Source of the DNA: Nitrospira sp.
GTDB lineage: Bacteria > Nitrospirota > Nitrospiria > Nitrospirales > Nitrospiraceae
NCBI GenBank assembly: GCA_022226935.1
Contig: CP092081.1
Coordinates: forward strand, 792,734-856,733
Length of the DNA: 64,000 nucleotides
Reading direction: 5' to 3'
Positions 28,879 through 30,739 of the stretch are shown piece by piece; within the stretch, counting starts at the first letter, position 1; the number at the start of each line of letters is the position of its first letter. Under the pieces are notes generated by a model. That model saw only the letters and a program-made list of their open reading frames with translations, was not told the DNA's origin and did no database searches. The translations under genes and the position numbers were made by a program.

Positions 28879-30609
28879 TTACGCCGGCTCAATGCCGCCG
28901 GCAGGGACCGTGTATTGTTCTTCAATGGCCGCGCGGATCAGCCTCCGGCTTTCATCAGCCGGAAGATCCGATCGGCTTTCAATCTCCCGGACTTCTTTTG
29001 AGAGCGCTTCGTCTTTGATCATCTCGCTGATCCACGTGGAGTAATCATGCGCCCTGAGGTGATATTGCCACGTGTGTTCATCGACGCCTTCGCCGAGTTG
29101 CATAAAGAGCAACAGATTTTGCGCCCGCAAATTCAATTGCCCCGCCGGACCTCTGAAATAGAAGCTGCGGTCAGGAGGCAGTTCGCCTTCCGCATATTTT
29201 CGCCTATGTCGCCGGCGCTCGCTGATGCTGGGGGCGAGCTCCAGGACCTCGGGAGCGCCCGTCGAGGTAATGTCCCACATGAGGGTCTGACCACGTTCAA
29301 GGTCAGCGGAGGGCAGGGGAGGAGCTCCCCGGTTCAGCGCGCGGCAAAAGCTTTCGATGGTCTGCCCCGGTGATTGGCCCAACGCAAACACCAGATCCAC
29401 GGTCTTCAGAATCGACGGGTCGATCTGATCGGGGTGAACGGTCACATACAGCACGCCCGTGGAATCCTGCGCGAGACCCGGTGCGGTGGGATTGCCGTCG
29501 CGCGGCAGAAGATGGTGCGATTCATCGATCAGGATCCAATGCGGGCGACCGCTTGCGGCGCGCAGTTCCAAAATCTTGTGGAGAAGACCCAGGAAAAACG
29601 CCGGGCGATCATGTAACGGGAGACCGACCAGGTTCACGACGACATGTGTCTGCGGATTCGCTAACGCCGTGAGGATTTCGGTGAGGCTGGGACCGTTCTG
29701 GGCGGTGCCCAGGATGACCGCTTGTGGGACGTTGTCATAATCCCCTTCGGGGTCAATGACGCAGAGTTGATATCCTTGCTCGCCGAGCCGCTCCAAGAGT
29801 CCGGTGGCAAGCGTCGATTTTCCGCTTCCGGACGTGCCGGCCACGAGAAGGTTCCGCCGACCGAAGGGGAGGATGACTTCGTCTCCGTTGCGTCGCCGTC
29901 CCAGCAGCAGACCGTGCCTGGACACCGTCAGTTCCGACGCCGCCAGATCGTCCGAAAGTAAATCATCGATGATTTCGATGACTCCGCGTCCGTGGTCTCC
30001 GGCGGTGGTACGATCCGCGGTTTCCTTCAGCATCGGGACGGCATTGTCTACGGCCACGCCGTATTCCGATAATGCCAGCATGGCATGGTCGTTTTCTCCA
30101 TCGCCGATGGCCACGGTGTTGTGAGGAGAGAGCTCCAAGCGGGCCAGCGCAGCCGTCAGTCCGGTGGCTTTATTGATGCCGTGCGGGAGCACCATGACGG
30201 CGCCCTTGTTGAAAATGATGCGAAGCTCCAATCCGAGGTCGCGAATGATGTCGAGGATCACAGTTTCATACGGAACCCGTGTGGCGACAATGATATGTCC
30301 GAGGCTGAGATGCTGTACTCCGCGGCGGTTCACCTCCTCCAGAAATGCCGGCCGGGGAGCGGCGGCCAGAAGCGTGATCTCTTTCGTCGCCGGGCGGTAC
30401 AGCACACCGCCGTTTTCTGCCACGACCAATTCGCACAATGAGATCTGGGGAAAAATGTTCAATAACTCGGGCAGGATCCGACCTGTGACGAGAATGAGTT
30501 TTCGGCCGGATGCCACCAGCCGCTCGATCGCGGCGACGGTGTCGGGATATACCGATCCGTCCGATGCCAAGGTCCCGTCGTAATCTGCTGCCAAAGCAAG
30601 GTAACGCAT
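28879..30609 (-). CDS. HAD-family phosphatase fused to HerA/DUF87-like P-loop ATPase
   Basis: 576 residues. The N-terminal half is a Cof-type (HAD-IIB) phosphatase: AADYDGTLASDG (nucleophile and acid Asp), ILVTGR (motif II), a Lys in FNKGAV or INKATG, and AIGDGENDHAML (motif IV). From about residue 225 comes an FtsK/HerA-like ATPase: Walker A GTSGSGKST, IDPEGDYD, Walker B WILIDESHHLLP, and a later arginine/sensor region. The C-terminal 110 residues are helical (PDRSFYFRGPAGQLNLRAQN onward). Such a fusion of a small-molecule phosphatase with a translocase-like ATPase is odd and its function is unknown. The start at 30609 is preceded by GGAAGGACG; the longer frame from 30666 would overlap the predicted leader. 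Promoter module at 30650-30695. Confidence 0.85.
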   Translation of the reverse strand: MRYLALAADYDGTLASDGSVYPDTVAAIERLVASGRKLILVTGRILPELLNIFPQISLCELVVAENGGVLYRPATKEITLLAAAPRPAFLEEVNRRGVQHLSLGHIIVATRVPYETVILDIIRDLGLELRIIFNKGAVMVLPHGINKATGLTAALARLELSPHNTVAIGDGENDHAMLALSEYGVAVDNAVPMLKETADRTTAGDHGRGVIEIIDDLLSDDLAASELTVSRHGLLLGRRRNGDEVILPFGRRNLLVAGTSGSGKSTLATGLLERLGEQGYQLCVIDPEGDYDNVPQAVILGTAQNGPSLTEILTALANPQTHVVVNLVGLPLHDRPAFFLGLLHKILELRAASGRPHWILIDESHHLLPRDGNPTAPGLAQDSTGVLYVTVHPDQIDPSILKTVDLVFALGQSPGQTIESFCRALNRGAPPLPSADLERGQTLMWDITSTGAPEVLELAPSISERRRHRRKYAEGELPPDRSFYFRGPAGQLNLRAQNLLLFMQLGEGVDEHTWQYHLRAHDYSTWISEMIKDEALSKEVREIESRSDLPADESRRLIRAAIEEQYTVPAGGIEPA

Positions 30610-30649: not shown

Positions 30650-30695
30650 TGTATACAAGCTTCCATCAGCCAGTGGAGCTAGGAAGGAGCCTAGG
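30650..30695 (-). promoter_or_regulatory. CTAG-box promoter module for the HAD-ATPase gene
   Basis: The 18-mer at 30678-30695 reads on the minus strand CCTAGGCTCCTTCCTAGC (two intact cores). A 22-bp spacer leads to the -10-like TATACA (30650-30655), the best -10 in the set. A poor -10 (CATGCT, 30717-30722) also lies to its right at similar spacing and could serve the 30740 gene. Confidence 0.8.
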
Positions 30696-30739
30696 GAGAT
30701 TCCGAGTCGGCGGGCACATGCTTTCATGCCAGAAAAAAG

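Follow-up and report, generated by a model that had tools for sequence, protein, structure and literature searches.

The window analysed here, a stretch of 64,000 nucleotides of a Nitrospira genome (contig CP092081.1, positions 792,734 to 856,733), carries on the minus strand (28879..30609) a gene for a protein of 576 amino acids in which an HAD-IIB phosphatase, a HerA-type ATPase core and a DUF5752/OrfY-type domain are fused. Re-reading of the sequence reproduced the open reading frame, the coordinates and the motifs (DYDGT and GDGENDH; GSGKST and LIDESHH) given in the original prediction, and Pfam searches confirmed the pairing of HAD with DUF87 that it had proposed (Hydrolase_3, 6.8e-30; DUF87, 8.9e-7, above its cut-off). 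The structure model had a mean pLDDT of 89.8, and the closest named relatives were from Nitrospira MAGs, with up to 91% identity. Starting instead from the ATG upstream, at 30666, would lengthen the protein by 19 residues. Since M1 is at least 90% conserved in the alignment of 72 homologues, the comparison supports 30609 as the start.

The host is a nitrite-oxidising bacterium, and the fusion gene lies among stress-survival genes. It is solitary and divergent from two genes, one lipoprotein-like and the other iron-permease-like, and the surrounding stretch contains catalase-like (a label from direct reading of the sequence), Ku, LigD, TreZ, glycogen-debranching, and PLD-like genes. The promoter had been credited with the best -10 element in a regulon set, but a scan upstream of the gene found no sigma-70-like promoter. 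By direct reading, TATACA (30650..30655, minus strand), about 41 nt ahead of the start, is a possible -10 element, without a -35 partner in the scan. Alignment of eight upstream regions revealed a CTAG-centred direct repeat, TCCCTAGGCTCCTTCCTAG (30679..30697, minus strand), which is kept in the window and upstream of some of its Nitrospira orthologues (L022, L024, L057, and L059) and might bind a regulator. As the mark of a regulon this shared motif was weak, with no second exact copy within the window and genome-wide matches barely above the reversed control (5 vs 3). Near-copies of the repeat precede two further genes, one PRC-barrel-like (C1:772746) and one lipoprotein-like (C1:1377242).

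The HAD-IIB phosphatase domain (residues 1-222; 29944..30609, minus strand), delimited by Pfam/NCBIfam models and fold, contains DYDGT, VTGR, K147, and GDGENDH. Motifs I-IV of HAD-IIB are present, and the domain scored 84.3 bits against TIGR01484 (cut-off 41.8). The nearest solved fold was 1wr8 (PH1421; Z 27.8 over 222 residues), and sucrose-, trehalose-6-, and mannosyl-3-phosphoglycerate phosphatases were found lower in the fold lists, the trehalose-6-phosphate and mannosyl-3-phosphoglycerate phosphatases at Z 20-22. The nearest named models in NCBIfam were archaeal phosphoglycolate phosphatases, under cut-off. No trehalose-phosphatase (OtsB) model was among the 25 best NCBIfam models for the fusion protein, and with a trehalose-phosphatase model a Synechococcus homologue reached 14.9 bits (cut-off 27). 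Judged by sequence, the HAD domain is outside the OtsB family.

The compact HerA-type ATPase core (residues about 230-463; 29221..29922, minus strand), recognised by fold and profile, carries GTSGSGKST, IDPEGDY, LIDESHH, and TVHPD. Its closest solved folds were HerA proteins (8xav, Z 21.4; 9x1m, Z 21.2; 4d2i, Z 20.9), followed by VirB4 (Z 20), and HerA chains were also the top profile matches (8j4u, 1.1e-11; 9x1l, 2.5e-10; 4d2i, 5.9e-9); ABC transporters were matched by the profile as well, mainly via the P-loop. The original description of a phosphatase joined to a HerA/FtsK-like ATPase therefore holds for the phosphatase and for the HerA type, whereas "FtsK-like" is less apt. The HerA-type RecA core with its Walker motifs is present. 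However, the N-terminal HAS beta-barrel of HerA was not found in the model or by fold comparison, and there is no room for it because the HAD domain and the core are separated by about eight residues. No nurA partner gene was found among the ten window proteins annotated with Pfam. The nearest separate ATPases found were Rhizobiales DUF87 ATPases of about 500 amino acids with a DPEGDF motif (L161 and L180-L184).

The third domain (residues about 466-567; 28909..29214, minus strand), which the original prediction had missed, is of the DUF5752/OrfY type, with one repeat compared with two in standalone DUF5752 proteins. Its profile matched standalone DUF5752 proteins (97.6%, E 3.4e-12, hhalign) and, by sequence, OrfY of Thermoproteus tenax (PDB 4cso; E 8.3e-14), and standalone DUF5752 proteins themselves matched 4cso at 2.9e-31 by profile. 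When the domain was folded alone, the best match was again 4cso (Z 10.5 over 95 residues; next 4.6), with a Foldseek E-value that is weak alone (0.57). Against the DUF5752 Pfam model (cut-off 23 bits), the window's third domain alone reached 11.7 bits and a Chloroploca homologue 30.5 bits. This model matched 20 of 61 relatives, a count that includes matches inside fusions. The PDB entry labels OrfY a "transcription factor". Our literature search found no paper naming DUF5752 and, for OrfY/DUF5752, a solved structure but no function.

OrfY of T. tenax is presumably part of a treT locus. In the window's genome, a standalone DUF5752 gene (C1:426034-426654; L079:7999-8673) occurs, as in locus L080, together with TreS-like, TreT-like GT4, second GT, MscS-like, and GlgE-like genes (the MscS-like and GlgE-like labels being direct readings of the sequences), and in L082 and L084 the standalone DUF5752 gene directly adjoins a TreT-like GT4. 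Its presence in a trehalose-type operon is a functional lead for DUF5752/OrfY.

Full-length fusions made up 76 of the 93 collected family members and were found in Nitrospirota, Alpha- and Betaproteobacteria, Myxococcota, Cyanobacteriota, Actinomycetota, and Chloroflexota; the three-part protein thus occurs in at least six bacterial phyla. Among 61 relatives, 23 matched, G046 among them by short weak matches only. The order-level sample around Rhodoblastus gave matches in 40 of 397 genomes (26 at full length), and Chloroflexota gave 31 of 301 (18 over nearly full length). By tblastn, 11 of 27 plasmid records had a copy covering at least 80%, and the phage matches listed were HAD-level only; a phage origin was rejected. 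Two fusion genes stand in tandem in Chloroflexota (L038:167-3658 and L042:6480-10010). A one-base shift in the linker splits the relative in G029 into two ORFs, and the frame is shifted inside the ATPase in G003 and G001; these shifts may be lesions or assembly errors. Two further members (L138 and L139) end before the third domain.

For motif counts, 72 of the 76 full-length fusions were aligned, the close copies L023, L045, L059, and L093 being left out (L025 duplicates L059 and does not figure in the later gene set). Each of the ten catalytic positions tested was kept in 69 of the 72 (exceptions L029, L030, and L040), and the lysine of Walker A and the glutamate of Walker B in every one. 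In L040, two HAD motif residues are changed. The two active sites are jointly conserved, and the interpretation originally given is partly supported. In a tree of the HAD region with 83 rows, HAD-only genes were nested among the fusions at several supported points, and the well-supported branches forced at least four changes; the HAD-only genes of L109 and L112 were sisters of the Aminobacter fusion L044 (support 100/96). No remnant of the ATPase or the third domain was found in the eleven HAD-only loci searched. The ATPase and the third domain seem to have been lost several times while the phosphatase was kept, and because of this repeated loss and retention the phosphatase is probably the output of the protein.

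Across loci the fusion gene is mostly solitary. A fixed partner gene was rejected, as neighbours differ between loci and 143 neighbour proteins matched 161 Pfam families. Usp was the commonest of these with 6, compared with 3 of the 143 neighbours for GT4-type models. The set covered two genes on each side of the non-Nitrospira A-type fusions, taken as simple ORF picks, with proteins below 80 or above 1100 amino acids excluded; 143 of 146 proteins were used and three long ones left out. In the Rhizobiales loci L109 and L112, the HAD-only gene heads a same-strand set of HAD, GT4, debranching-type enzyme, and GT20 genes, a candidate solute pathway. The GT20 of L112 is related to OtsA, the trehalose-6-phosphate synthase (447 and 502 bits, under cut-offs), and the OtsA-like GT20 of this set bears an N-terminal extension. 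Beside the fusions of L044 (Aminobacter) and L045 lie the same GT4, debranching-type, and GT20 genes in the opposite direction. The GT20 link comes from four loci of two related groups. Furthermore, two GT4 genes lie just upstream of the Caballeronia fusion (L047) on the same strand. A second fusion subfamily, about 32% identical (L060, L061, and L063, from G025, G020, and G003), lies within a NiFe hydrogenase operon, flanked by hypF and hypC, in three genomes of Nitrospira; the second-subfamily fusion of G030 (L062) is placed elsewhere.

The window's genome has OtsA-type GT20 and OtsB-type Trehalose_PPase genes side by side. Because of this normal pair the fusion is not a missing OtsB, and that role was rejected for this genome. 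A second GT20 gene (C1:949129-950553; L185:5130-6554), without a recognised adjacent phosphatase, is present in nearly all Nitrospira searched, with or without the fusion, and GT20 genes as a whole likewise occur in nearly all Nitrospira regardless of it.

We tentatively favour the view that the fusion is a small-molecule phosphatase linked to stress, which carries an ATP-dependent control unit of its own and acts on a glycoside phosphate. What we infer for substrate, ATP gating, ring or oligomer, and docking is as follows. The substrate of the HAD-IIB domain would be a glycoside phosphate produced by a partner glycosyltransferase, with trehalose-6-phosphate or a close analogue as the most likely case, and its hydrolysis would free a compatible solute. 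By binding and hydrolysing ATP, the HerA-type core, probably a ring, would set the activity or assembly of the phosphatase, and the OrfY/DUF5752 domain may dock to, or sense, the solute-synthesis machinery. Trehalose-type solute metabolism is suggested because standalone DUF5752 genes lie in trehalose operons, because the fusion-derived HAD-only genes of Rhizobiales head the GT4/debranching/GT20 operon, and because their sister fusion in Aminobacter lies beside the same genes. The third domain and the operons of the HAD-only relatives accordingly make the protein less difficult to assign to a known pathway than first claimed, and among the three functions first offered the ATP-gated phosphatase fits best. 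However, most fusions are without a glycosyltransferase neighbour, and the second subfamily is found in hydrogenase operons in three Nitrospira. The chief counterpoint is the host's own OtsA/OtsB pair, because of which trehalose-6-phosphate need not be the substrate in this organism.

A serious, if rather unlikely, alternative is that the phosphatase, again controlled by ATP, acts on a metabolite that is not a solute, for example 2-phosphoglycolate or a stray sugar phosphate, in metabolite repair under stress. The proximity of archaeal phosphoglycolate phosphatases in models and fold, the mixed neighbours with universal stress proteins commonest, and the subfamily in hydrogenase operons are consistent with it, but it leaves the OrfY/DUF5752 domain and the GT20/GT4 operons unexplained. 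It appears improbable that the protein is a DNA-acting stress regulator whose HerA core binds or moves on DNA, with OrfY as a transcription factor and HAD as a sugar-phosphate sensor. The HerA type of the core and the PDB label of OrfY would fit such a regulator; however, the HAS barrel is missing, profile searches listed no known DNA-binding domain, and the HAD domain keeps its full catalytic residues and is the part retained where the other two are missing. The defence-like option of the original prediction, taken here as an effector akin to MADS or to systems based on HerA, found no support and is very improbable. Although the ATPase matches PADLOC mad8 (4.8e-12) and is close in fold to the HerA proteins of SIR2/HerA and related defence complexes, the mad8 match is limited to the ATPase, none of the ten neighbours matched a MADS model (the sole PADLOC match among them was a weak oxidoreductase), the varying neighbours include no fixed partner gene, and no relative was found in viral contigs. 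The available part of PMC12839542, on BREX, had no bearing on the fusion protein. Finally, the chance of an assembly or sequencing artefact joining two genes is negligible in spite of the two ORFs of G029: the fusion is no artefact, because 76 of 93 members from many independent genomes in six phyla are full-length and 69 of 72 keep all tested catalytic residues, and the sequencing error near residue 220, named beforehand as a refuter, fails for the family.

Each of the three domains is already known; their combination was not found in papers, a literature search having returned none on it. To our knowledge, HerA-type rings are so far known for DNA work. Extending the solute phosphatase reading, it is possible, though doubtful, that the HerA-type ring is a metabolic ATPase switch, gating or assembling a phosphatase for a compatible solute and docking it via OrfY to a synthase of the trehalose type; the output of solute would then follow the energy state under stress. 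If true, the HerA fold would gain a new type of role and OrfY/DUF5752 its first function. A protein conserved in six phyla with both active sites under selection makes it practicable to test whether metabolism can be controlled by a HerA-type core, and it also lets one ask about the role of OrfY/DUF5752 in trehalose-type stress responses. With the fusion and its predicted function, one can ask in concrete terms how a motor-like ATPase contributes to the synthesis of protective sugars.

Among known systems, the standalone-DUF5752 gene sets have a gene content similar to that of the msc-gt-tpsp operon for the T. tenax trehalose synthase complex, as described in the available part of PMC3634074. 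In Sulfolobus acidocaldarius, a GT4-type TPS is paired with a non-OtsB HAD phosphatase for which trehalose-6-phosphate phosphatase activity was shown (PMC7688234, available part). Associations of GT4, HAD phosphatase, and mechanosensitive-channel genes are common to these systems, whereas the available parts of both papers mention no HerA core and gave no part for OrfY in the T. tenax complex (PMC3634074, PMC7688234). With HAD-IIB small-molecule phosphatases (PH1421 phosphoglycolate phosphatase; sucrose-6-phosphate and mannosyl-3-phosphoglycerate phosphatases) the fusion shares the fold and all catalytic motifs, but it falls under the cut-off of every equivalog listed, and here the domain is joined to an ATPase and an OrfY domain. 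With archaeal and defence HerA (DUF87) ATPases it shares the RecA core, Walker A, DPxGDY, and a Walker B with a DEAH-like end, and its HP motif after Walker B aligns to the QRP of HerA. Unlike HerA, it is without the N-terminal HAS barrel; about 230 of its residues align to a HerA stretch of about 420, and the HAD and OrfY domains replace the remainder. The third domain matches DUF5752/OrfY of T. tenax (4cso) in profile and fold, but it has one repeat instead of two and is fused.
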